NCBI GenBank assembly: GCA_013696965.1
Contig: JACCXN010000098.1
Location: 1 to 31,971, forward strand
Length of the DNA stretch: 31,971 nt
DNA from: Bacteroidota bacterium
Lineage (GTDB): Bacteria; Bacteroidota; Bacteroidia; JACCXN01
Direction: 5' to 3'
The position numbers were made by a program, and so were the translations under genes. The notes under the pieces are model-generated. The model ran no database searches. It worked only from the letters and a program-made list of their open reading frames with translations, and was not told where the DNA came from. This document shows positions 10,017 through 27,721 of this stretch, one piece after another (the stretch's first letter is position 1; each line of letters starts with the position of its first letter).

Positions 10017-10445
10017 TCAGGTAAGTTCTTTTTGTAAAATATCTTCAATTAAATTGGATATTTTTAACAGGGAAGATGTGTTTTTTACTATATAATCATA
10101 AGCCCCCCCTTGCTGCAAAAATTCTATTGAGGCAAGCATTTCAGCTCGCTGAGACATCAATACCACTTTGCATCTTTCGCAATCTTCCTTTATGGCATTA
10201 AGTACATAAAGGCCTTGAAGGGGATGTCCGGTTTCTTCAAGAAAATAATCAAGAAGAACCACATCAGGATTAAAATTAATGGATTCAATACAGGATCCAG
10301 AGCTATAAAATGATTTTACATCAATCTCATAGTTTTCATATTCGGGATTTCTGGATAAAGTCTTCAAATGATTTGTTAAAATACTATTGTAAAAAGGGTC
10401 ATCATCTACCACAAAAATAACAAACCTTCGTTTTTCCTTTTTCAT
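10017..10445 (-). CDS. Single-domain response regulator (CheY-like)
   Basis: The 142-residue protein is one receiver domain with no output domain. The acidic cluster is DDD at 14-16, the phospho-acceptor is D66 (VVLLDYF), the switch Ser is S98 (VLMSQ) and the conserved Lys is K121 (DYIVKN), so phosphorylation should work. An insertion-like segment after D66 (EETGHPLQG) is longer than in CheY. It follows the NtrC-type gene by 126 bases on the same strand and probably belongs to the same signalling group. A weak hairpin at 9972-9995, with a T-run on the minus strand, may end the transcript. The partner kinase is not in this window. Confidence 0.9.
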   Translation of the reverse strand: MKKEKRRFVIFVVDDDPFYNSILTNHLKTLSRNPEYENYEIDVKSFYSSGSCIESINFNPDVVLLDYFLEETGHPLQGLYVLNAIKEDCERCKVVLMSQRAEMLASIEFLQQGGAYDYIVKNTSSLLKISNLIEDILQKELT

Positions 10446-10571
10446 TGCTTTTTATCTTGTTATTAACACTTACTGTGCTATTATCCGTATTAAATCTTAT
10501 TAACATTAACGCCTTTAAGGGCTAATTTATTTTTTAGCGGACCCTTCATAATTCTTGTTTTTATTGGCCTT

Positions 10572-11954
10572 TTAGTCAAAAAAGTCGTTTCTTGTCCTTG
10601 TTTTTTCCTCTTGTAACATCCTGTAAATTGTTGATTTTCCAATATCCAGTTTTCGTGCTACCAAAAGCACATCATTGTTGTATTTTTCCAGATAAGACCG
10701 AATTAGTTTTTTGATATAGTTTCTTAAAGTGGTTTCTTGTTCAGGTACAAAAACAGGAGTGGACATTTCGCTGAAAACAAGGTCATCAGGACTAATCGTG
10801 TCAGAATCGGAAAGCACAGCGGCCAGTTCAACAACTGATTTTAATTCACGTACATTTCCCGGGAAAGAATAATTAAGGAGTTTTTTCTGGGCTTCCTTGC
10901 TTAGTGCCTTTAGCTCAAGATTATTGTCCTTTGCAAAATGTTCTAAAAAATGTTTGGCCAAAAGAAGGATATCCGTACCTCTTTCCCTTAAAGGAGGAAG
11001 ATGAATATTCAGACCAAGCAACCTGTAGTAGAGATCTTCCCTGAAATTTCCTTTTTTCACCTCTTCTTGTAAGCTTTTATTGCTTGCGGCAATTATCCTG
11101 CAATCTACTTTAACTGTTGCATTACTTCCAACGCGTGAAATTTCCCTTTCCTGCAAAACCCTTAAAAGTTTTACCTGTAAATGTGGTTGCATATCAGTTA
11201 CCTCATCCAGAAAAATTGTTCCGCCATTTGCTTGTTCAAACCTGCCAATTCGCTTGGTTGCAGCTCCGGTAAAAGATCCTTTTTCATGCCCAAATAATTC
11301 ACTCTCAACTAGCTCTTTTGGAACAGCAGAAAGATTTACCGCAACTAAGGGTCCGTTTCGCCTTTTGGAATTATAGTGAACCGCCTTTGCCACAAGCTCC
11401 TTACCTGTGCCTGTTTCTCCTGTTATAGAAATATTTATATCTGTTTGAACAGCTTTTTCAATCATTCGGAAAACTGCTTTAATGGCAGGACTTTGCCCGA
11501 TTATAATATTACCAAATTCATACTTTTTACTAACTTCTTGTTCCAGATGGGTAATCTTTTCCTTAAGTCTATTTTTCTTTCGGATATTATTTACAACATG
11601 AAGAAGTTTTTCCCTTAAATCATCTGTCTTTACAAGATAATCATAGGCACCTTGTTTTAGCATTTCAACAGCAACCTCTAACTTATCCTGCCCCGACACA
11701 ACGATTACTTCTATGTAAGGATCAAACTCCTTTATTTTTTTAAGCACTTCGGTGCCATGTAAATCCGGAAGAGTTAAATCTAAGGTTATAATGTCTGGTC
11801 TTTCATAAAGATGCATTAAAGAATCCTTTCCATTTTCAAACATTTTTACTTCATATTCTGGAACCAACAATAGGTTGTAACTTAAAAATTCCCTATACCA
11901 CTTATCGTCCTCTACAACAAATATTTTTAAATTCTCAGATGTTTCTTTTTCCAT
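10572..11954 (-). CDS. Sigma-54-dependent response regulator, NtrC family
   Basis: This 460-residue activator opens promoters bound by RNA polymerase with sigma-54. Domains run in order: receiver (1-125) with D59 as phospho-acceptor and K109; AAA+ (about 150-375) with Walker A GETGTGKE (179-186), sigma-54 contact loop GSFTGA (226-231), Walker B GGTIFLDE (244-251) and REDLYYRL (305-312); and a Fis-type helix-turn-helix at about 424-447. The contact loop has Ser where GAFTGA has Ala, a variant found in some working family members. It starts 20 bases after the end of the receiver-HPt gene, so the two are co-transcribed. Its targets are unknown; no clean TGGCAC-N5-TTGC promoter was spotted here. 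Confidence 0.95.
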   Translation of the reverse strand: MEKETSENLKIFVVEDDKWYREFLSYNLLLVPEYEVKMFENGKDSLMHLYERPDIITLDLTLPDLHGTEVLKKIKEFDPYIEVIVVSGQDKLEVAVEMLKQGAYDYLVKTDDLREKLLHVVNNIRKKNRLKEKITHLEQEVSKKYEFGNIIIGQSPAIKAVFRMIEKAVQTDINISITGETGTGKELVAKAVHYNSKRRNGPLVAVNLSAVPKELVESELFGHEKGSFTGAATKRIGRFEQANGGTIFLDEVTDMQPHLQVKLLRVLQEREISRVGSNATVKVDCRIIAASNKSLQEEVKKGNFREDLYYRLLGLNIHLPPLRERGTDILLLAKHFLEHFAKDNNLELKALSKEAQKKLLNYSFPGNVRELKSVVELAAVLSDSDTISPDDLVFSEMSTPVFVPEQETTLRNYIKKLIRSYLEKYNNDVLLVARKLDIGKSTIYRMLQEEKTRTRNDFFD

Positions 11955-11974
11955 TTTATTTTTTTTTATTTGTG

Positions 11975-13054
11975 CTAGTCAATAACTTTTTTAAGCCGCC
12001 TAATAACCTTTTCCGTTTTTCTATAAAAAACATCCAGCAACGCAGGAAGTTCATCAAGATGCCTGTTTTCTCCAGCATTTTCTTCTACTATTTTTAAAAC
12101 CTCTGCCATATCCTTAATACCCATATGGGAAAAGGATGGCCTCATTTTGTGCGCAAGCATACTAACTTGCTCCCATTGGTTTTCCTTGGTTGCAGTTTTA
12201 ATTTTTTCTATTGTATCCGGAGTGTTTTCAATAAAAAGTTCTATGATTTTTTTGAAAAAAACTGCATCCCCCTTGGTGATTTTTTTTAATTCACTCAAAT
12301 CGTATAATTCATGCTCGCTGATAGTATCCTTTCCTAATTCAGCTTTGCCTGTATTTCTATTCTTTTGTTTATTCTCTAATACTAAATTAATTTTCTCTAT
12401 TAAATTAATTTCATTGACTGGTCTTAACAAATATGCATTAATACCCCTTAAAATATAAGCCTGTACTTCTTGAACAGATGCATTTTTTGCAATTACAATT
12501 ACTGGTAAATCCACTTCTGTTTGATCTCCCCTTAATTCTTTTACCCATTCCTCAACATGCCTATCAATCATTTCAAAATCCAGCAATATCAAATCAAAAT
12601 TATTTGCCCTAACTAAATTTTTAGCTTCCCAATTGCTACTCGCTTCATCTACCGATGCATTATTCTGTTGAAGGATTGCGCTTAACAAAAACCTGTTAAA
12701 AGTATCAGAATCAACAACAAGAACTTTTATCCTGCTAAGTTCAGATTCGATTTGTTTTGGGTATTCCTTTGAACTAAAATTCTCTTTTTCCGGATTTTCT
12801 TTTTTATTTTGACTACCTAATGCTTCAAATTTTAATTCTTTCCTTGTGTTTTTCAGACTAAATAAAATAACAGTTACAGCTATAGAAAAAAAAGCCATTC
12901 CGCTAATGGCCTTAATAACCTGAGTCAGTGTAGGGCTTAAAAGTGAACTTATACAAGCCATTATTGCCATGGCCAGAAAAAGGCCCGGAACGACCAAAAA
13001 AATTAGTGGAATTGATTTTTTCATATCTTCCAGGTTTCTATTTATGTGCCACAT
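11975..13054 (-). CDS. Membrane-anchored receiver-HPt protein
   Basis: The 359-residue protein has two N-terminal transmembrane helices (about 15-37 and 44-66), a charged linker, a receiver domain (about 108-228) and a C-terminal HPt domain (about 255-355) with the phosphorylatable histidine H302 in MLAHKMRPSF. The arrangement looks like a hybrid sensor kinase lacking its HisKA and ATPase modules. The receiver keeps the aspartate D159 (LLDFEM), but one acidic-pocket residue is Ser (VVDSD, 113-117), the conserved Thr/Ser is A189 and the conserved Lys before Pro is R211, so phospho-switching is doubtful. An internal ATG at 13024, preceded by GGAAG, may be the true start. It heads the operon with the NtrC-type gene. 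Confidence 0.88.
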   Translation of the reverse strand: MWHINRNLEDMKKSIPLIFLVVPGLFLAMAIMACISSLLSPTLTQVIKAISGMAFFSIAVTVILFSLKNTRKELKFEALGSQNKKENPEKENFSSKEYPKQIESELSRIKVLVVDSDTFNRFLLSAILQQNNASVDEASSNWEAKNLVRANNFDLILLDFEMIDRHVEEWVKELRGDQTEVDLPVIVIAKNASVQEVQAYILRGINAYLLRPVNEINLIEKINLVLENKQKNRNTGKAELGKDTISEHELYDLSELKKITKGDAVFFKKIIELFIENTPDTIEKIKTATKENQWEQVSMLAHKMRPSFSHMGIKDMAEVLKIVEENAGENRHLDELPALLDVFYRKTEKVIRRLKKVID

Positions 13055-18206: not shown

Positions 18207-19346
18207 ATGAGGAAATCTTACTTAATTATCACATCCCTATTTTTCATTTCTTTTATTGCAAATGCTCAATGGGTTTCAAATTTTCCGTCTGGAGTAATAA
18301 GATCAATGGCAAGCAATGGGCCAACTGTTGTTGCCGTGGGAAATGGTGTTCACCAAACCACAGATAATGGAAACAGTTGGACTAACATAGGAATGGGATT
18401 AGATGTTAGAACAGTATGTAAAGAGGATAACCAGCTTGTTGGTTTAATGAATAACGGTGGTGTTTATTATTATGATGGAGCAACATGGACTTCACTGGGC
18501 TTAAGTGGAGTAGAAATATTTTCGCTAAAAATAACGACTACTTTATATGCAGCAACCAGTAATGGGGTGTATTTTTATAATGGAACCTGGAACCAAATTA
18601 ATACCGGAATATTCGGTACTGTTTATTGTTTAGAAGCCAGCGGTGGATTTTTGTATGCTGGCACGACTACAGGAGTTTACAGAACTGATGAAGCAACAAT
18701 AAATTGGACAGCTGTTAATGCAGGACTTAATTATGGCAGTGGAGTTAATTCAATTGCTTTTCAAGGGAGCACAATGTTCGTAGGAACCTATGGTGCTGGT
18801 ATTAGTTACTCTTTCGATTTGGGGAATAACTGGACTCAAAGCAATACTGGACTTGCGGATTTGTTTATTTTATCCTTAAATATCCAGGGAACAAACATTT
18901 ATGCAGGAACTAATTCAAATGGGGTATATGTTTCAATTAACGAGGGAGCCAGTTGGTCTGCCTATAATAGCGGATTAGTACCCTCTACCATTTTGGCCCT
19001 TACCAGTAATGCCACACATGTTTTTGCTGGAAATGGTGGAAACGGAGTTTGGGCCAGGCCTCACAACCAATCTTTAGGAATTAAAAACGACCCAAAGAGT
19101 GATTATAGTTTGACTGTTTTCCCTAACCCCTCAAAAGGAAATGTAACTTTAAATTCAGACAATTCAATAGGCATAGATGCTATTGAAATATACAACATGG
19201 CTGGGGTTAAGATGTTTGAAAAACATTTTAATGCAAACAATGCTTCCATAAATATTGATCTTGAACAAATACTTTCACAGGGAGTGTATTTAATACAAAT
19301 TACTTCAGGAGATAAATCAACTAAAAGAAAATTAGTACTTAATTAA
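18207..19346 (+). CDS. Secreted Asp-box propeller protein with T9SS tail
   Basis: The 379-residue protein starts with a signal peptide (MRKSYLIITSLFFISFIANA, cleaved before Q21). The body (about 21-295) is a beta-propeller built from repeats with Asp-box (BNR-like) motifs such as TDNGNSWTNIG, SFDLGNNWTQS and NEGASWSAYN. The C-terminus from about residue 303 is a type A T9SS sorting domain (VFPNPSKG, IEIYNMAGVKMFEK, QGVYLIQI, KLVLN). It is therefore exported by the Sec and type IX systems and released or attached at the cell surface. The ligand is unknown. ATG at 18207 is chosen over TTG at 18174 because it begins the signal peptide. A lipoprotein gene follows after 57 bases. Confidence 0.88.
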   Translation: MRKSYLIITSLFFISFIANAQWVSNFPSGVIRSMASNGPTVVAVGNGVHQTTDNGNSWTNIGMGLDVRTVCKEDNQLVGLMNNGGVYYYDGATWTSLGLSGVEIFSLKITTTLYAATSNGVYFYNGTWNQINTGIFGTVYCLEASGGFLYAGTTTGVYRTDEATINWTAVNAGLNYGSGVNSIAFQGSTMFVGTYGAGISYSFDLGNNWTQSNTGLADLFILSLNIQGTNIYAGTNSNGVYVSINEGASWSAYNSGLVPSTILALTSNATHVFAGNGGNGVWARPHNQSLGIKNDPKSDYSLTVFPNPSKGNVTLNSDNSIGIDAIEIYNMAGVKMFEKHFNANNASINIDLEQILSQGVYLIQITSGDKSTKRKLVLN

Positions 19347-19910: not shown

Positions 19911-20057
19911 ATAGCCATGCACTTTCAGTGTAAAAACACGAATGAATATAACATGGCCTCCCGATAAATCGGGATGACAATTAAAAATCAAATGCTTTAG
20001 CATTCTTGAGTTCCTTAAAGGAAAAATTAAAAACGAATAAATTATATACATATGAAA
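19911..20057. repeat. Dispersed repeat (copy B) in front of a barrel gene
   Basis: Begins with ATAGCCATGCAC (the end of the 88-bp unit at the left edge), then AATGAATATAACATGGC, then a perfect hairpin TCCCGAT/ATCGGGA (19959-19974, two-base loop), GATGACAATTAAAAA, a GCTTTAGCATTC segment, and the tail AAATTATATACATATG. It matches the long unit at 261-371 nearly throughout. The ATG at its end is the start codon of the next gene. It fills almost all of the 183-base gap. Confidence 0.85.
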
Positions 20058-20870
20058 AATATTAAATCGCTTATTTGCCTTAGCTTGCTTAGTTTGATTG
20101 GTTCGGCATCATTTGCACAATTATCTGACAGGATAAACAATCCAAGTAAATTTAAAACTGGCACCAGGCCAATTCAAGGAGATATGGGTGTATTTATTGG
20201 TTATAATACTGCCAATATCAAATTAAAACCAGACAGTGTGGATAATGGTATTGAAGAGATAACAAGTGTATTGCCTGATATAAGTATTAAATATTATGTA
20301 GCAGACGATTTGGTATTTAGAGCAGGGGTAAGCACAAAAAAAGAAAAAACATTAAGAAGAGGAACAATTGATCCTGCTTTAAACGGTATCGGTGGTCTTT
20401 CAAGAAGAGATCAGGTAAGCGTTGCTTCTGAATTTTACATAACTCCAGCAATTGAAAAACACTTTCTAAGTTCAAACCTTTTGGATGTTTATGTTGTTGC
20501 AACCTTGCCTTTGGGTTATTTAAGGGAAAAGGGTGAAGACAATGTTGGATATGCTTCAGGTGATTTTGTTTATAAATCAATGAACAAAATGAGCTTTGCA
20601 TATGGCTTGGAAGCCCACGTTGGATTACAGGCATTTATTGCTGATCTCCCTTTGGCAATTGGAGCTGAAATGGGAATTAGTGGGATCGGGTATAGAGGAG
20701 AAAAATTAAAACATGTTGAAAGTTCATCAATCGGTGGTGTGGAAACAAATCAGGTTTATTATACTTTCAAAAATGATCCTCAGAATATTAAATACTCTAA
20801 TTTAAAATCAAATAGCTTTAATACAAGTACTAGTATCCGTATTACTCTTAGCTATTATTTCAGCAAATAA
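20052..20870 (+). CDS. Outer-membrane beta-barrel protein
   Basis: The 272-residue protein has a signal peptide (MKNIKSLICLSLLSLIGSASFA, then Q) and a mature part with alternating hydrophobic residues and aromatic-ended strands (FIGYNTANIKL, SIKYYVADDLVFRAGVS, YGLEAHVGLQAFIADLP). It ends in SIRITLSYYFSK, a terminal strand with a penultimate aromatic typical of outer-membrane barrels. Size suggests 8 to 12 strands; it is not a TonB-dependent receptor. The start codon and the whole upstream region belong to the dispersed repeat, so its expression signals come from that element. The next gene begins 21 bases downstream, indicating an operon with the lipoprotein at 20892. Confidence 0.8.
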   Translation: MKNIKSLICLSLLSLIGSASFAQLSDRINNPSKFKTGTRPIQGDMGVFIGYNTANIKLKPDSVDNGIEEITSVLPDISIKYYVADDLVFRAGVSTKKEKTLRRGTIDPALNGIGGLSRRDQVSVASEFYITPAIEKHFLSSNLLDVYVVATLPLGYLREKGEDNVGYASGDFVYKSMNKMSFAYGLEAHVGLQAFIADLPLAIGAEMGISGIGYRGEKLKHVESSSIGGVETNQVYYTFKNDPQNIKYSNLKSNSFNTSTSIRITLSYYFSK

Positions 20871-20891
20871 TAAATTTAAAATTTGCCAACT

Positions 20892-21368
20892 ATGTTCAAA
20901 TTAAAAACAATATTAGGAGCAGTAATAATCTTTGCTGTTTTATTTTCCTCATGTTCACCTGCTGGTCGCATAGGCACACATACCAAGCACTCTATGCGCT
21001 CGGCCAGCTTTTTGCCAAATGTTGTGCGTTTGGATTTAACTATGAATGATTTTGAATACCTGGGCACTCAAGAGGTTTCAGTTACTTACAACCGTTATCT
21101 TGGTTTGTTTTCTTTTATTAGCAGTGTAAATCAGCAAGAATATGCCAGACGCAATGTTAACATTGTAAATTTAAATGGCAACACAGGTTATCGTGCTTTG
21201 TCATTAAATTATAATTTAATGCAAGCTTTATACGTATCCCTTGTAAATTTTCCTAATGCTGATTTTGTTGTACCTGTTAGCATTGTTGAAGAAAAACAGC
21301 AAATGTTTTTAGGCCGTGTTATAACGAAAAAACTAAAAGTAAAAATGTATAAAATAAAAGAAAAATAG
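20892..21368 (+). CDS. Lipoprotein of unknown function
   Basis: The 158-residue protein has a lipoprotein signal (MFKLKTILGAVIIFAVLF) with lipobox SSC; C21 is lipidated, followed by SPAGR. The mature region contains DFEYLGTQEVSVTYNRYLG and a C-terminal KKLKVKMYKI stretch; no family is recognised. A TTG at 20883 would add three residues, but the ATG is the better start. It is co-transcribed with the barrel gene 21 bases upstream and ends before a strong terminator, so the pair may work together at the outer membrane. Confidence 0.8.
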   Translation: MFKLKTILGAVIIFAVLFSSCSPAGRIGTHTKHSMRSASFLPNVVRLDLTMNDFEYLGTQEVSVTYNRYLGLFSFISSVNQQEYARRNVNIVNLNGNTGYRALSLNYNLMQALYVSLVNFPNADFVVPVSIVEEKQQMFLGRVITKKLKVKMYKIKEK

Positions 21369-21471: not shown

Positions 21472-22287
21472 ATGCGAAAATACTCTCTTGTAGCAATCCT
21501 GCTAATTTTTATTTCTGTATCCTGTAAAAAACAAAAGGATTCTCCTGCGCTTTTATTTATAAGTCCCACAACAAACCATTACGATGGATTTATTTCGGAA
21601 GTATTAAGGTTTGATATTTCAGGCTCCTCGAATACAGCTCTGGCAAATTTTAAAGTAACCGTAAAGGAGGGAAATTCCTTTTCTCAAACAGTATTTGATA
21701 CCACTTTAAGCACTCCAAAATACAACAGTTCCTTCGAATATAAAATACCTTCAAATGCACAAGGATCAAATATACTGCTTACATTTATTTTAACCGATGA
21801 CCAGGGAAACCAAACCAAAATGGGCAAAACATTAAGTGTATTTCTCACAATTAAAAATCCGGAAGAATCCACTGGACATGAAATGTTTTCTGCATTGTCA
21901 ACAAAAAATGACGCTTATAACTTAATATCAAGAACCCCTTTGTATTCTGTTTCTGAAAGTGAATCAAATCTACATTTAAAGGATGATACAGAGCAAGACC
22001 CTTCTATGAATTATTTATTGGGGAAAAGATGGATTTCTCCTGCAGGTTTAAAATTTGTCCGTTTTAATGAATTTGATTACGCAAACGCAACTTACATTGA
22101 TTTAAAAAATGCATATGAAGCCGGAAATAAAAAAGATTTTGTAGATTTTGTGTCAAATGCAGACATAATTTTAACCCGATTCCCAGATTCTAAACCTGAC
22201 GAAGGTTATATTGCTATTAAAGTAGTGCAGGTAATTGAACAGGGAGGGGCAGATTTCGACAGGTATATTTTCAATTTCAAAAAATAG
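21472..22287 (+). CDS. Lipoprotein, first gene of the caspase operon
   Basis: The 271-residue protein has a lipoprotein signal with lipobox SVSC; C18 is the modified residue, followed by KKQKD. The mature part begins with a beta-sandwich-like segment (LRFDISGSSNTALANFKVTV, TFILTDDQGN) resembling an Ig-like fold, then an alpha/beta region (ADIILTRFPDSKPDEGYIAIKV). No family is recognised with certainty. It stands 21 bases before the caspase gene and should be made with it; a role as a surface or periplasmic partner of the protease is an inference from position only. Confidence 0.8.
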   Translation: MRKYSLVAILLIFISVSCKKQKDSPALLFISPTTNHYDGFISEVLRFDISGSSNTALANFKVTVKEGNSFSQTVFDTTLSTPKYNSSFEYKIPSNAQGSNILLTFILTDDQGNQTKMGKTLSVFLTIKNPEESTGHEMFSALSTKNDAYNLISRTPLYSVSESESNLHLKDDTEQDPSMNYLLGKRWISPAGLKFVRFNEFDYANATYIDLKNAYEAGNKKDFVDFVSNADIILTRFPDSKPDEGYIAIKVVQVIEQGGADFDRYIFNFKK

Positions 22288-22308
22288 TATTAATGTAAAT
22301 CTAAAGGC

Positions 22309-24405
22309 ATGAAAAATATCTTTTTCTTATTTCTGGTTTTAATGTTTACAACCACTTCTGCCCAAAATATGTTTGAAGTGAACTGGGAAAAGAGATTCGG
22401 GGGAGGATACGAGGACCAGGCAAAATCAATTATAAATTCCGGGGATGGGGCTTATGTAATTGCTGGATGGACAAAATCATTAGGAAACGGTGGCAGGGAT
22501 GCAATGGTTGTGAAAGTAAATGCAACTGGAAATAAGATTTGGGAAAAAACCTTTGGAAAAGAACAAGACGATGTTATATACAGTGCAGTGCTTTCTCCAG
22601 AAGGAAATTACATCATGTGTGGGTCAACATTTAACAAACAAACTGAATATTATTCCTGGTGGGTTTTCGCTATAGACAAAAACGGAACAAAATTATGGGA
22701 AAACACATACGGTGGAAGTGAATGGGATGCAGCCAAAGCAATAATTTCAACCACCGATGGATTTGTTATAGCTGGTGTAAGGAAAAACAGGGGTGATATG
22801 GATAAGGAAATGACCCTAATGAAAATCAACAAAAAGGGCGTTAAGCAATGGGAATGTCCACTTGGTGTGCGTTATTATGATGATGAGGCAACTTCGGTTG
22901 CAGCAACTGTTGATGAGGGATTTATTGTTGCAGGTTGGTCAAAAAAAGATTCTGGCCCTAACAAACAAATACATCTTGCAAAGGTGGACAAAAGAGGACA
23001 TGCAGAATGGCAAAAAACTTTTGGTGGAGAAATCTCCGATTTTGCCAAATCAATTACCCCAACCAATGATGGGAGATTTATTATTACCGCTGCTTCTCGT
23101 TCAAAAACAAATGGAGAAGAAGATATCAGAGTTATTAAAATTGATGCTAAGGGTGAATTAGAATGGGACTTAAATTACGGTGGATTATATTCTGATATCC
23201 CTAATGCTATCAGTTCAACTGATGATAATGGCTGCATTATTGCCGGCTATACAAAATCAGTTGGAAATGGAAACGAAAATTTATTTTTAATGCGCCTTGA
23301 TAGAAAAGGTAATATTGTTTGGGAAAGGTTTTTTGTAAACTATAAATGGGTTTCGGCAGAATCAATAGCAATCTCTGATAATGGCTATACAATTGCAGGA
23401 TGGGCAACTTCCGAAGATGGGGACGATTCTGACCTTTTCATTATGAACCTTACTGATAACTTCGATAAGCAAGTAAACAATTACATCACTGAAAATACTA
23501 AATCCGGTGATACCAAAACAAGGGATGAAATAAAAAAAGAAGCCATTAGTAAATTTAAAATAGATAAAGTTTCTTTTGCCGATTATTATAGTGCTCCTAA
23601 TAAAGCAGATATTACTTATAGAGGAGGAGGCGATCCATTAAAAGGGTTAAATGTTACCACCAAGCCTAAAGACAATCAATTTGGAGAATATTATGCCCTA
23701 ATAATTGGCATTGATAATTACAAGGGAATTTGGTCTCCATTGAAAAACGCTGTTCGAGATGCACAAACTGTTGAACAGGTTTTCAAAACAGTTTATAAGT
23801 TTGATCATGTGAAAACCATTTATAATGAAAAAGCGACAAGGGCAAATATTATTCGTGAAATGGAATGGTTAATTGAAAACGTTTCACCAAAGGATAATGT
23901 TTTGATTTATTATTCTGGCCATGGAGAATTCAAAAAAAACCTCAATAAGGGCTTTTGGGTGCCTGTAGATGCCAGTACCAATTCTACCTCAGCATACATA
24001 TCCAATTCGGAAATTCAAACCTTCCTTGGCGGTATTCCTTCAAGACATACACTACTTATTGCCGATGCTTGTTTTAGTGGTGATATTTTCAGAGGCAATA
24101 CAATGTCGGTGCCCTTTGAGCAATCTGAGAAGTATTATGCCGAAGTAAATGCATTAAAATCCAGGCAGGCATTAACCTCAGGAGGCATTGAACTTGTTAT
24201 GGATGGGGGAAAAGACGGACATTCAATATTTGCTTATTATCTTTTACAAGCACTTAAGGAAAATAAAAACAAATATTTTGATGCAAGCCAGCTATATTCA
24301 AAATTAAAAATTCCAGTTGTAAACAATTCAGAACAAACACCAAGTTTTAATCCTATCAAAAGCACAGGAGACGAAGGAGGCCAATTTATCTTCATAAAAA
24401 GATGA
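22309..24405 (+). CDS. Secreted caspase-fold protease with N-terminal repeats
   Basis: The 698-residue protein has a signal peptide (MKNIFFLFLVLMFTTTSA), then seven repeats of about 52 residues each starting with a W-E/Q-K-x-F/Y-G motif (W26, W78, W130, W181, W234, W286, W338), which should close a seven-bladed propeller. A linker (390-455) leads to a peptidase C14 caspase domain (about 460-690): ALIIGIDNY, catalytic H538 in YYSGHGE and C588 in ADACFSG. Both dyad residues are present, so it should be active; cleavage specificity is unknown. There is no T9SS tail. It is the middle gene of a three-gene operon, 25 bases before the SpoIIE sensor. Confidence 0.92.
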   Translation: MKNIFFLFLVLMFTTTSAQNMFEVNWEKRFGGGYEDQAKSIINSGDGAYVIAGWTKSLGNGGRDAMVVKVNATGNKIWEKTFGKEQDDVIYSAVLSPEGNYIMCGSTFNKQTEYYSWWVFAIDKNGTKLWENTYGGSEWDAAKAIISTTDGFVIAGVRKNRGDMDKEMTLMKINKKGVKQWECPLGVRYYDDEATSVAATVDEGFIVAGWSKKDSGPNKQIHLAKVDKRGHAEWQKTFGGEISDFAKSITPTNDGRFIITAASRSKTNGEEDIRVIKIDAKGELEWDLNYGGLYSDIPNAISSTDDNGCIIAGYTKSVGNGNENLFLMRLDRKGNIVWERFFVNYKWVSAESIAISDNGYTIAGWATSEDGDDSDLFIMNLTDNFDKQVNNYITENTKSGDTKTRDEIKKEAISKFKIDKVSFADYYSAPNKADITYRGGGDPLKGLNVTTKPKDNQFGEYYALIIGIDNYKGIWSPLKNAVRDAQTVEQVFKTVYKFDHVKTIYNEKATRANIIREMEWLIENVSPKDNVLIYYSGHGEFKKNLNKGFWVPVDASTNSTSAYISNSEIQTFLGGIPSRHTLLIADACFSGDIFRGNTMSVPFEQSEKYYAEVNALKSRQALTSGGIELVMDGGKDGHSIFAYYLLQALKENKNKYFDASQLYSKLKIPVVNNSEQTPSFNPIKSTGDEGGQFIFIKR

Positions 24406-24430
24406 TTTTACTTTTCTTATTTATTCATTA

Positions 24431-27400
24431 ATGCCATTACGTTTTTTCTTTCCCTTTTTAGCCTTATTCTTGCTTGCCAATTACGCAACAAGCCAGGTAA
24501 ACAATTTCAAACACTGGTCCATACAGGATGGTTTGCCTCAATCGAACGTTTATTGCATTAAGCAGGATAAACGCGGCTTTATTTGGATTGGAACCGGAAA
24601 CGGGGTTAGTTGCTTCGATGGAAAAAAATTCAAATCCTATTCAATAAAAGAAGGGCTATCAGGGAATGTTGTTAGAAGCATAATGGAAGATTCCAGTGGT
24701 AGATTGTGGTTTGGTACCGATAAGGGCATCTCAATTTATAATGGCTTTGAGTTTTTTACCCTTGGTAAGCCAGAAGGATTAATGGGTAGCACCGTTTTGT
24801 GCTTTATTGAAGATAATAACAAAACCATTTGGTCAGGAACCGATGACAATGGAATAAACAAAATTGTTTTTAATTCTAAAAACGATTATAGCATTACAAA
24901 TTATAATGAATCCCTGGGCTTAAGCAGCAATGCTGTTTTTGATTTATATTTTGATAAATACAACAGTATTTGGGCTGCAACATTTGGAGGGATAAATATT
25001 TTATATCAAAAGGATGATAAAATAACCGTAAAGGTTATTAATGGAGAGGAAAATATACCCAGCGATTTACTTTTATCAATATCTGAAGACAATAAAGGGG
25101 ATTTATGGTTTGGAACATACAATGCCGGCGCTTTTAAATTTGACCTTAATTCAGGGAATACTATTGAAAATCAAATTAATGTGGTTTCCTATAACACATC
25201 AAATGGTTTAAATGCCAATTCTGTTTGGGATATTCTTTGCACACAGGATAATAGTATTTGGTTTGGCACCTCCGAGAAGGGCATAAACAGATTTACACCC
25301 CAAAAAAACTCAGATGCCTTTTTAATTACAACTTATTCTTCCAAACAAAGCTTTTCCAGCGACCAGATTTTATGTTTTTTTGAAGATAAACAATCTAATA
25401 TTTGGATAGGCACAAATGGTGATGGATTATTTATGTTGCCAGGAGATCATTTTTCCCACTATTCATTAAAAGAGGGAATTCCTACCAAAATTCAAGGAAT
25501 TGCGCAGGATAAAGATTCTAATATATGGATAGTATCCGATGGGGGTGGGCTTGCTGTAATTAACAACAATAAAGAAATTCCATTTTTAATGGGATATACA
25601 GAAAAAGAAGGATTATCGAGCAGTTTTTTAACCTGTATTGCTACAGGGAAAGCCGGAAACACGAACATTTGGATGGGGACTTCAAGTAGGGGAATCATTA
25701 AATATGATGGAAATAACTTTACAACTTTCGATGAAAATAACGGACTTATTAGTAACAGGGTAAATGCCGTATTTATAGATAAAAATGGAATTCTTTGGTG
25801 TGGCACAGCCAATGGCATTAGCCGTTATGATGGCATAAAATTCCTTAATGTTTCTACTGATATGCTAACAATGGAGAACCAGGGAGTAAAGGCTATAATT
25901 CAAGATAAAAAAGACAATATTTGGTTTGGAACAGCTGGTGGATTAGCAAGATATAACGGAAAGGGAGAAATGAAGACCTTTGATATGGAAGAAGGTTTAT
26001 TACACATTGATATTAATGCAATTACAGAGGATATTTATGGAAATATTTGGATTGGAACAAATGGAGGTGGAATTTATAAATTTAATGGGAAAAAGAAAGA
26101 AAAGGATGCAATTGAATTTATTGCAAATGAAAATTTTTTATCCTCAAATTCAATCCGTTCCTTAATTTTTCTTAATGACTCAACCCTTATAGCAGGTACT
26201 TATAAGGGTTTTGACAAATTGTTTTTAGATAAAAACGGCAAAGTATTAAGGTCAAAAAATTACAATTCTTCTGATGGATTCATCGGGGTTGAATGTAATG
26301 ACAACAGTATTCACAAGGACGCTGATGACAATATTTGGTTTGGTACCGGAAAAGGACTCACTAGATATTCTTCCTATCTGGAAAAAAACATTTCAACTGT
26401 GCCTAAAGTATACATTTCCAATTTGCAGCTTTTTTATAAAAATGTGAATTGGTCGCAAAAAACCGACAGCATTCTTCCTTTCTTTAATGTGCCTTTTTCT
26501 TTACAATTGCCTCACAATGAGAATAACCTGACTTTTTATTTTTCTGCTATTTCTTTAAGCAACCCTGATAAGCTAAAATACACCTATTTATTAGAAGGAA
26601 GAGATGAAGAATGGTCACCAATAAAGCCAGATAATGATGTTACTTTTTCAGGATTAACTCCCGGAAATTATACGCTAAAAATAAGAGCTATTGACTCCAA
26701 TTCAAATTGGTCGGAACCTGCTTTATTTACTTTTACAATATCTCCCCCTTGGTATCAGTCTCTCATGTTTTATTTGCTTTGTGCATTTATAATAGGTTTA
26801 GGTATATACGGATTTATTAGATACAGGGAGAGGGCGCTTTTAAATGAAAAAAAAATACTTGAGCAAATCGTTTCAGAACGTACCCGGGAATTGGTATTGC
26901 AAAAAGAAAAAATTGCAGAAAAAAACAGAGAAATTACCGATAGTATAAATTATGCAAAGGGCATTCAAGATGCAATTTTACCTACATCTGAGTCTATACA
27001 ACAATGGTTTCCCAAATCTTTTGTTCTATTTAAGCCTAAAGCTATTGTGAGTGGCGACTTTTACTGGATGGAAAAAGTGGATCACAAACTTCTTTTTGCA
27101 GCCATAGATTGCACAGGACATGGAGTTCCGGGTGGATTTGTTAGCATGGTGGGGGCAAATGGACTAAATCGGTCTGTAAAAGAATATAACATTATAAAAC
27201 CTTCTAAAATTCTTGATAGGCTTTCTGAATTGGTTGAGGAAACTTTCAGTAAACGAAAGGATGGAATGGATATCGCATTGTGTTCAATCAATTCAATGAA
27301 CAATACCCTTGAATATTCGGGTGCCAACAATTCTATGTACTTGGTAAGAAAAAGCAATATCCCTTTAAACCTTAATGGTGAATTTATTAATCCTGTTTTT

Positions 27401-27721
27401 GAGAATTCAGATGTTCGCCTTTTTGAGATAAAAGCAGACAAACAACCAATAGGATCTTTTGATAACCGTAAAGCTTTTACAAATCATCTTCTCGAATTAA
27501 TGAAGGATGACACTATCTATGTTTTTACGGATGGATACGCGGATCAATTTGGAGGCCAAAACGGAAAAAAATTCAAATACAATCAATTGAAAGAGCTATT
27601 CGTTTCAATTCATAACTTAACTATGGAAGAGCAACAAGTTGTATTGGCTAAAACAATAGAGGATTGGAAAGGAAACCTGGAGCAAATAGATGATATTTGT
27701 ATTGTTGGGGTAAAGATTTAA
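24431..27721 (+). CDS. Reg_prop / Y_Y_Y sensor with SpoIIE-type phosphatase
   Basis: The 1096-residue protein begins with a signal peptide, then 14 Reg_prop blade motifs of the form xIWxGTxxG (two seven-bladed propellers, to about residue 660) and a Y_Y_Y domain (about 690-770). A transmembrane helix (about 777-797) and a coiled coil (about 803-845) lead to a cytoplasmic SpoIIE/PP2C phosphatase (850-1096). Metal-binding aspartates are present: D876 (SGDFYW), D893 (IDCTGHG), D1034 (FTDGY), D1087 and D1088 (QIDDICI). The layout is that of a transmembrane sensor controlling a Ser/Thr phosphatase, which in known systems acts on an anti-sigma antagonist. No antagonist or anti-sigma gene is present here. 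It is the last gene of the operon. Confidence 0.93.
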   Translation: MPLRFFFPFLALFLLANYATSQVNNFKHWSIQDGLPQSNVYCIKQDKRGFIWIGTGNGVSCFDGKKFKSYSIKEGLSGNVVRSIMEDSSGRLWFGTDKGISIYNGFEFFTLGKPEGLMGSTVLCFIEDNNKTIWSGTDDNGINKIVFNSKNDYSITNYNESLGLSSNAVFDLYFDKYNSIWAATFGGINILYQKDDKITVKVINGEENIPSDLLLSISEDNKGDLWFGTYNAGAFKFDLNSGNTIENQINVVSYNTSNGLNANSVWDILCTQDNSIWFGTSEKGINRFTPQKNSDAFLITTYSSKQSFSSDQILCFFEDKQSNIWIGTNGDGLFMLPGDHFSHYSLKEGIPTKIQGIAQDKDSNIWIVSDGGGLAVINNNKEIPFLMGYTEKEGLSSSFLTCIATGKAGNTNIWMGTSSRGIIKYDGNNFTTFDENNGLISNRVNAVFIDKNGILWCGTANGISRYDGIKFLNVSTDMLTMENQGVKAIIQDKKDNIWFGTAGGLARYNGKGEMKTFDMEEGLLHIDINAITEDIYGNIWIGTNGGGIYKFNGKKKEKDAIEFIANENFLSSNSIRSLIFLNDSTLIAGTYKGFDKLFLDKNGKVLRSKNYNSSDGFIGVECNDNSIHKDADDNIWFGTGKGLTRYSSYLEKNISTVPKVYISNLQLFYKNVNWSQKTDSILPFFNVPFSLQLPHNENNLTFYFSAISLSNPDKLKYTYLLEGRDEEWSPIKPDNDVTFSGLTPGNYTLKIRAIDSNSNWSEPALFTFTISPPWYQSLMFYLLCAFIIGLGIYGFIRYRERALLNEKKILEQIVSERTRELVLQKEKIAEKNREITDSINYAKGIQDAILPTSESIQQWFPKSFVLFKPKAIVSGDFYWMEKVDHKLLFAAIDCTGHGVPGGFVSMVGANGLNRSVKEYNIIKPSKILDRLSELVEETFSKRKDGMDIALCSINSMNNTLEYSGANNSMYLVRKSNIPLNLNGEFINPVFENSDVRLFEIKADKQPIGSFDNRKAFTNHLLELMKDDTIYVFTDGYADQFGGQNGKKFKYNQLKELFVSIHNLTMEEQQVVLAKTIEDWKGNLEQIDDICIVGVKI

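Follow-up and report, generated by a model that had tools for sequence, protein, structure and literature searches.

The window analysed here is positions 1-31,971 of contig JACCXN010000098.1 (forward strand; assembly GCA_013696965.1), a stretch of 31,971 nucleotides (nt) from a Bacteroidota bacterium (JACCXN01). Its plus strand carries a run of five genes, the last two of which encode a caspase-fold protease, predicted to be exported, and a transmembrane sensor with a cytoplasmic SpoIIE/PP2C phosphatase domain. The features of these two genes, which are the subject of this report, are as follows (aa, amino acids).

22309..24405, plus strand: caspase-fold protease, 698 aa, predicted to be exported (PF00656, structure models, Foldseek)
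22372..23457, plus strand: seven-bladed delta-60/DUF5122-like propeller, caspase residues 22-383 (28 strands in the model; delta_60_rpt E=1.7e-7, under the cut-off)
23617..23655, plus strand: junction motif YRGGGDPLKGLNV, caspase residues 437-449, candidate self-cleavage site after R438 (R-G in 93 of 93 relatives; disordered in both models)
23692..24351, plus strand: caspase domain, residues 462-681 (PF00656)
23920..23922, plus strand: catalytic His H538 (SGHG), invariant in relatives
24070..24072, plus strand: catalytic Cys C588 (DACFSGD), invariant in relatives
24431..27721, plus strand: transmembrane sensor, 1096 aa, with two Reg_prop propellers, Y_Y_Y and SpoIIE/PP2C (Pfam)
26753..26821, plus strand: predicted transmembrane segment, sensor residues ~775-797 (one hydrophobic stretch in the sequence)
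27080..27715, plus strand: SpoIIE/PP2C phosphatase domain, residues 884-1095 (Pfam; metal Asp conserved)

A first-pass annotation had proposed that these genes and a lipoprotein gene immediately 5' of them form one tightly coupled unit. Its description of the parts holds: the three open reading frames (ORFs), of 271, 698 and 1096 aa, lie on the plus strand where it had placed them, with gaps of 21 nt between lipoprotein and caspase and 25 nt between caspase and sensor. The protease matches PF00656 (peptidase C14) over residues 462-681 with E=7.7e-22 and 78.6 bits against a cut-off of 21.4, and the His/Cys dyad that had been read as intact, H538 and C588, is invariant in relatives. An AlphaFold2 model, based on an alignment of 69 relatives, consists of a seven-bladed propeller and a caspase fold, joined by a short helical segment and a disordered linker (residues 427-454); the 28 strands before residue 383 make up seven four-stranded blades, in agreement with the seven repeats counted earlier. 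Foldseek returned propellers, metacaspases, GSU0716 and MALT1 for this model, and no NCBIfam family scored above its cut-off for the protein. In the sensor Pfam identified Reg_prop (E=5.5e-56), Y_Y_Y (E=1.4e-15) and SpoIIE (E=3.7e-14; 53.5 bits against a cut-off of 25), and the metal-site aspartates D876, D893, D1034 and D1088 are present and conserved in linked sensors, consistent with the propeller ectodomain and metal-complete PP2C interior assigned previously. In the source genome PF00656 is represented by a single gene and SpoIIE by about 28.

Relatives of the caspase were collected by a class-wide search of 395 Bacteroidia genomes and by a scan of 84,980 species (one genome each), in which the best 80 of 166 relatives were kept, giving a combined set of 94 distinct members. 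Nearly all derive from metagenome-assembled genomes (MAGs) of Bacteroidota, two records being labelled Chlorobiota and one Deltaproteobacteria. The C14 domain was matched in 69 of the 69 relatives scanned, and the C-terminal protease module is about 60-80% identical to that of the window. The N-terminal front ends are diverse and include the delta-60 propeller, WD40 (19 of the 69 scanned), WG repeats, CARDB, Reg_prop-like and unassigned types. Because a simple hydropathy rule detected a hydrophobic N-terminal segment in 84 of 88 relatives, most caspases of this subfamily are taken to be exported; the window enzyme likewise has a signal peptide-like N-terminus. Family and gene-order searches returned three genomes only and were little informative. 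Tandem caspase genes occur at loci L094, L117, L135, L155 and L273, with up to four consecutive copies in L273 (genome G144).

A sensor gene lies on the same strand 3' of the caspase in 36 of the 94 cases and is missing in 50, the other eight being not fully judgeable at contig ends. Linked sensors are nearly all encoded by the next gene after the caspase, many across gaps of <100 nt. As this sample was drawn from caspases, a converse search was begun from the sensor in the 395 Bacteroidia genomes. A close sensor, defined by a score >700 bits, is present in 22 of these genomes; in 12 of them a caspase lies a short way 5' of it, twice with one small opposite-strand ORF between the two genes; a thirteenth pair, split over two contigs in G096, is probable. 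All 22 close-sensor genomes contain a strong caspase, compared with 27 of the 395 overall and none of the 11 genomes in the next class, where the best sensor scores 600-700 bits. The Fisher p for co-occurrence, about 1e-31, is overstated as the genomes are related, yet the co-occurrence spans 11 families. In family f21 the two genes are confined to G065 and G270, each of which has both.

The pairing extends to sensor phylogeny. In a tree of 75 sensors a single branch with 100% support comprises 46 rows: all of the 35 that have a subfamily caspase upstream, and 11 (10 genes) without. Four other Reg_prop/SpoIIE paralogues sampled from the source genome fall outside this branch, so that the coupling concerns this sensor clade rather than SpoIIE sensors at large. 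On the caspase tree linked caspases span at least 11 unrelated front-end classes, and the sensor lineage has accordingly been paired with many protease versions, by front ends being exchanged, by adjacency being lost repeatedly, or by a combination of the two. A second caspase family (~30% identity, with a TPR front end in L230) lies directly 5' of another Reg_prop/SpoIIE clade in three genomes (L230 5937-11492, L231 3804-9493 and L258 3292-8858); it lacks the R-G-DPLKGLN motif described below, and offers a separate, independent example of this arrangement. By these comparisons of sequence and gene order the caspase-SpoIIE sensor pairing is strongly supported, and the two proteins very probably act in one pathway. 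Pair-bearing Bacteroidota are many and mostly uncultured.

Other neighbours were observed beside related sensors. In family f24 (L249-L252, L247) the sensor has no caspase neighbour; the gene that follows it encodes instead a Reg_prop-only protein, similar to the front end of the 623-aa caspases of this family. Another sensor clade (L255, L256, L257, L259, L261-L264) is regularly preceded by a ~400-460-aa protein that appears exported in most cases and, in L259, contains a carboxypeptidase-regulatory domain; this may be another conserved pair.

The linker between front end and protease module has the consensus (Y/F/M/L)-R-G-x-G-D-P-(L/M)-K-G-(L/I)-N. Its R-G is kept in all 93 relatives counted, of which 76 fit the strict pattern and 17 vary, by inspection, within DPLKGL; DPMKGIN, DPLSGLN and GPMKGLN are examples of this drift, all with R-G kept. 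The motif is absent from the four sister caspases read directly (L048, L049, L269 and L270), and in L271 and L272 the core match starts past its position, so that it is not readable there. In Trypanosoma brucei MCA2, Asp95 and Asp211 accommodate basic P1 residues (PMC6426788); more generally, metacaspases favour Arg/Lys, and the N-terminal region can block the active site (PMC4357240, PMC6426788). D484 of the window caspase aligns with Asp95, and D586, two residues before the catalytic Cys, corresponds by position to Asp211, both being invariant. Because these two acidic S1 residues are conserved, the window caspase is predicted to cut after Arg or Lys. For Arg-specific cutting R438 would be the obvious internal candidate site, and self-cleavage there is an almost evenly poised possibility, if on balance a slightly doubtful one. 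The motif could instead be a docking or assembly signal for a shared export, outer-membrane or sensor partner, with the caspase activated by dimerisation or allostery. Such a role, which seems rather doubtful, would suit the conservation, which runs well past the Arg and exceeds a minimal protease site, the location of the motif where shuffled front ends join, and the precedent of paracaspase activation by dimerisation (PMC4357240). It accounts less readily for the retention of R-G in 93 of 93 relatives despite drift in DPLKGLN, as expected of a P1-P1' pair facing an acidic S1 pocket. The linker is unplaced or disordered in both AlphaFold2 models, in which no docking of it into the active site is readable.

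The output of the sensor had been ascribed, in the first-pass annotation, to a sigma-factor switch or another phosphoprotein. The PP2C domain has its best NCBIfam match in SiaA, at 172 bits, which does not reach the equivalog cut-off of 700, and paralogous sensors adjoin Sia-type genes: DUF6272 and SiaC genes stand beside such sensors in the source genome (L228, contig C60) and in G188 (L238). These apparent operons, each with a Reg_prop/SpoIIE sensor, span 7542-12755 of L228 and 5331-9473 of L238, and DUF6272, by its place beside SiaC, is a candidate SiaB-like protein. The L228/L238 arrangement may itself be a Sia-type partner switch in which the sensor carries propellers. SiaC was found in 14 of the 14 genomes checked, with three SiaC proteins in the source genome, and in Pseudomonas SiaA dephosphorylates SiaC (PMC7647112). 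Since SiaA is the best match and Sia genes lie beside paralogous sensors, a SiaC-type target is no less likely than a sigma-factor output and is the favoured lead; for the window sensor a SiaC-type output can be suggested tentatively. The phosphatase may alternatively act on an anti-sigma/STAS partner switch and not on SiaC. STAS proteins, which the earlier annotation had proposed to look for as partners elsewhere in the genome, are encoded there (three matches) and occur in 13 of 14 genomes. The STAS alternative nevertheless appears unlikely in view of the curated match to SiaA, the SiaB/SiaC-type genes beside paralogues and the presence of SiaC in every genome checked, none of which concerns the window sensor itself.

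We propose, with reserve, that caspase and sensor together make up a single signalling system of the envelope. The caspase would be produced as a latent exported proenzyme. On binding or losing a target through its front end, the protease would cut after Arg438 in the flexible R-G-x-G-D-P-L-K-G-L-N linker, and in the periplasm or at the outer membrane this cut would free or activate the protease module of ~29 kDa. The sensor, in the inner membrane, would read the event, its ectodomain either being cut at a basic site or binding the released module or product, and its cytoplasmic PP2C domain would then dephosphorylate a protein of a partner switch, for which a SiaC-type protein is the likeliest candidate. 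The placing of the caspase upstream of the sensor is possible but falls somewhat short of probable, and an extracytoplasmic caspase relay that runs the full course, from interchangeable recognition domains through Arg-specific self-cleavage at R-G to a phosphatase sensor and a partner-switch signal, is unlikely to be right in its entirety.

Several observations weigh against this proposal. A linker modelled with low confidence need not be a cleavage site, and a search of the sensor ectodomain for a basic cleavage site specific to the clade yielded no convincing Arg/Lys position. On the caspase tree there are at least 10 changes between the linked and the unlinked state, 10 sensor genes of the linked clade have no caspase just upstream, and the 50 unlinked caspases have visible downstream genes among which there is no sensor. 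The nearest relative of the window caspase (L091, 80% core identity) has a thiolase gene directly 3' of it, not a sensor gene, and among the proteins encoded in the window no SiaC, SiaB or STAS protein was found.

The direction of signalling could also be the reverse, the sensor controlling the production or use of the caspase, which would be an effector acting on envelope or extracellular proteins of the cell itself, of prey or of a competitor. Sensor-effector pairs are commonly neighbours, and the caspase bears varied recognition domains of its own, as an effector with varied targets would. The sensor ectodomain, however, is confined to a single clade despite the varied protease front ends, the substrates of SpoIIE domains are phosphoproteins of the cytoplasm, and no regulator gene is conserved beside the pair, making this reversed order quite improbable. 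That the genes merely share a region through common ancestry or co-transfer, with no functional link, would be compatible with the patchy adjacency and with a sample made up largely of related MAGs, but is very improbable given the co-occurrence in 22 of 22 genomes over 11 families even where the genes are apart, the re-pairing with different front ends and the second independent caspase-sensor pair.

The proposed system in which the caspase signals to the sensor shares features with several known ones. The hybrid two-component sensors of Bacteroidetes combine a periplasmic part of Reg_prop and Y_Y_Y with one membrane crossing and a histidine kinase and receiver; the window sensor has the same periplasmic part and single crossing, but its interior is a SpoIIE phosphatase with no histidine kinase or receiver. 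In bacterial immunity, caspase-like proteases encoded in gasdermin operons are cytoplasmic. The window resembles these operons in that a caspase-fold protease is encoded with a partner gene, but its protease has a signal peptide-like N-terminus by the hydropathy rule and is predicted to be exported. Neither Pfam nor PADLOC revealed a gasdermin or other defence partner in the flanking genes, the three upstream proteins having had no fold-level search. SiaABC(D) of Pseudomonas (PMC7647112) likewise has a transmembrane PP2C/SpoIIE phosphatase with a metal-complete domain. In contrast to that system, the window sensor has an ectodomain of Reg_prop propellers and Y_Y_Y, scores far under the SiaA cut-off and is adjoined by a caspase gene, with no SiaB or SiaC beside it. 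A 2012 survey of bacterial metacaspases (PMC3501461) includes types with WD40 and further domains, of which some are probably exported and encoded in operons; its main text contains neither ‘SpoIIE' nor ‘phosphatase'. The window caspase is like prokaryotic metacaspases and orthocaspases in its C14 domain, dyad, acidic S1 pocket and modular front ends (PMC3501461, PMC6426788), and like some of them in its possible signal peptide and operon location. It differs from them in belonging to a tight subfamily with its own R-G-x-G-D-P-L-K-G-L-N motif and a conserved phosphatase-sensor partner. Among open-access papers, none was found that combines caspase, SpoIIE, propeller and Bacteroidetes, or caspase and Reg_prop; subscription papers and preprints were outside the scope of this search. 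The parts thus belong to known families, and the subfamily with its junction motif and conserved phosphatase-sensor partner appears undescribed.

The roles of most bacterial caspases are obscure, and thinking so far has centred on cell death and on immunity inside the cell. An unusually conserved subfamily that is probably exported, with a candidate activation site and a signalling partner, makes activation, substrate and output directly testable. If the proposal is correct, it would add a route by which proteolysis is relayed to a phosphatase across the Gram-negative envelope, and would mean that caspases are used in environmental signalling.

Three further genes of the run lie 5' of the caspase.

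20052..20870, plus strand: first gene of the run, 272 aa, a probable exported outer-membrane barrel; gene order with the three that follow conserved in L051, L052, L053 and L054
20892..21368, plus strand: probable lipoprotein, 158 aa (161 aa if the start is the TTG at 20883), lipobox read from the sequence, conserved order
21472..22287, plus strand: lipoprotein, 271 aa, apparent accessory of the delta-60 type caspase, 5' of the caspase in L091 (=L051), L092 (=L054), L095 (=L053) and L052

The first two (20052-20870 and 20892-21368) are members of this conserved run and are not covered by the coordinates of the earlier annotation, which also lacked the near-invariant R-G junction motif and the shuffling of caspase front ends. 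The 272-aa protein has no Pfam match; the 271-aa lipoprotein has an SVSC lipobox, read from the sequence, and a sub-threshold DUF4625 as its sole Pfam match. Scans for sigma-70 promoters and terminators gave no signal beyond that of shuffled sequences. The order from the 272-aa protein through the two lipoproteins to the caspase is shared by L051, L052, L053 and L054, and the five-gene order including the sensor recurs, besides the window, only in L053 (G170; same contig as L095, UBA2669). The trio of lipoprotein, caspase and sensor, whose order was checked across Bacteroidota, was rejected as a conserved unit: it is complete only in the window and in that one other lineage (G170/UBA2669, L053 = L095), and perhaps partly present in L153. 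Of the coupling originally claimed, the caspase-sensor part is upheld, since the two genes are repeatedly neighbours, occur in the same genomes and involve one particular sensor clade; the lipoprotein part fails. The 271-aa lipoprotein was found only with delta-60-propeller caspases (five loci), two of the five being without an adjacent sensor. In L052 the caspase is followed by a 217-aa ORF matching none of the queries, and in L092 by a contig edge; sensor homologues lie elsewhere in these two genomes and in that of L091 (G069, where it is broken over contig ends or frames, G188 and G158). The neighbourhoods of L091, L052, L092 and L053 indicate that the lipoprotein belongs with the delta-60 propeller type of caspase and not with the wider system; like the two genes 5' of it, it appears to be an accessory of this propeller type that is specific to certain lineages.

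Outside Bacteroidia, sister caspases of L269-L272, apparently exported, have a 157-170-aa ORF upstream, joined at three of the four loci by a ~454-aa ORF (a papain-like peptidase in L269); in L269-L271 a protein with a type IX secretion tail is encoded next after the sister caspase. In the window a propeller protein with such a sorting tail (Por_Secre_tail; 18207-19346) lies slightly 5' of the run, showing that the organism has type IX secretion substrates. The minus strand at 10017-13054 carries a cluster encoding a receiver protein, a sigma-54 response regulator and a receiver-Hpt protein.

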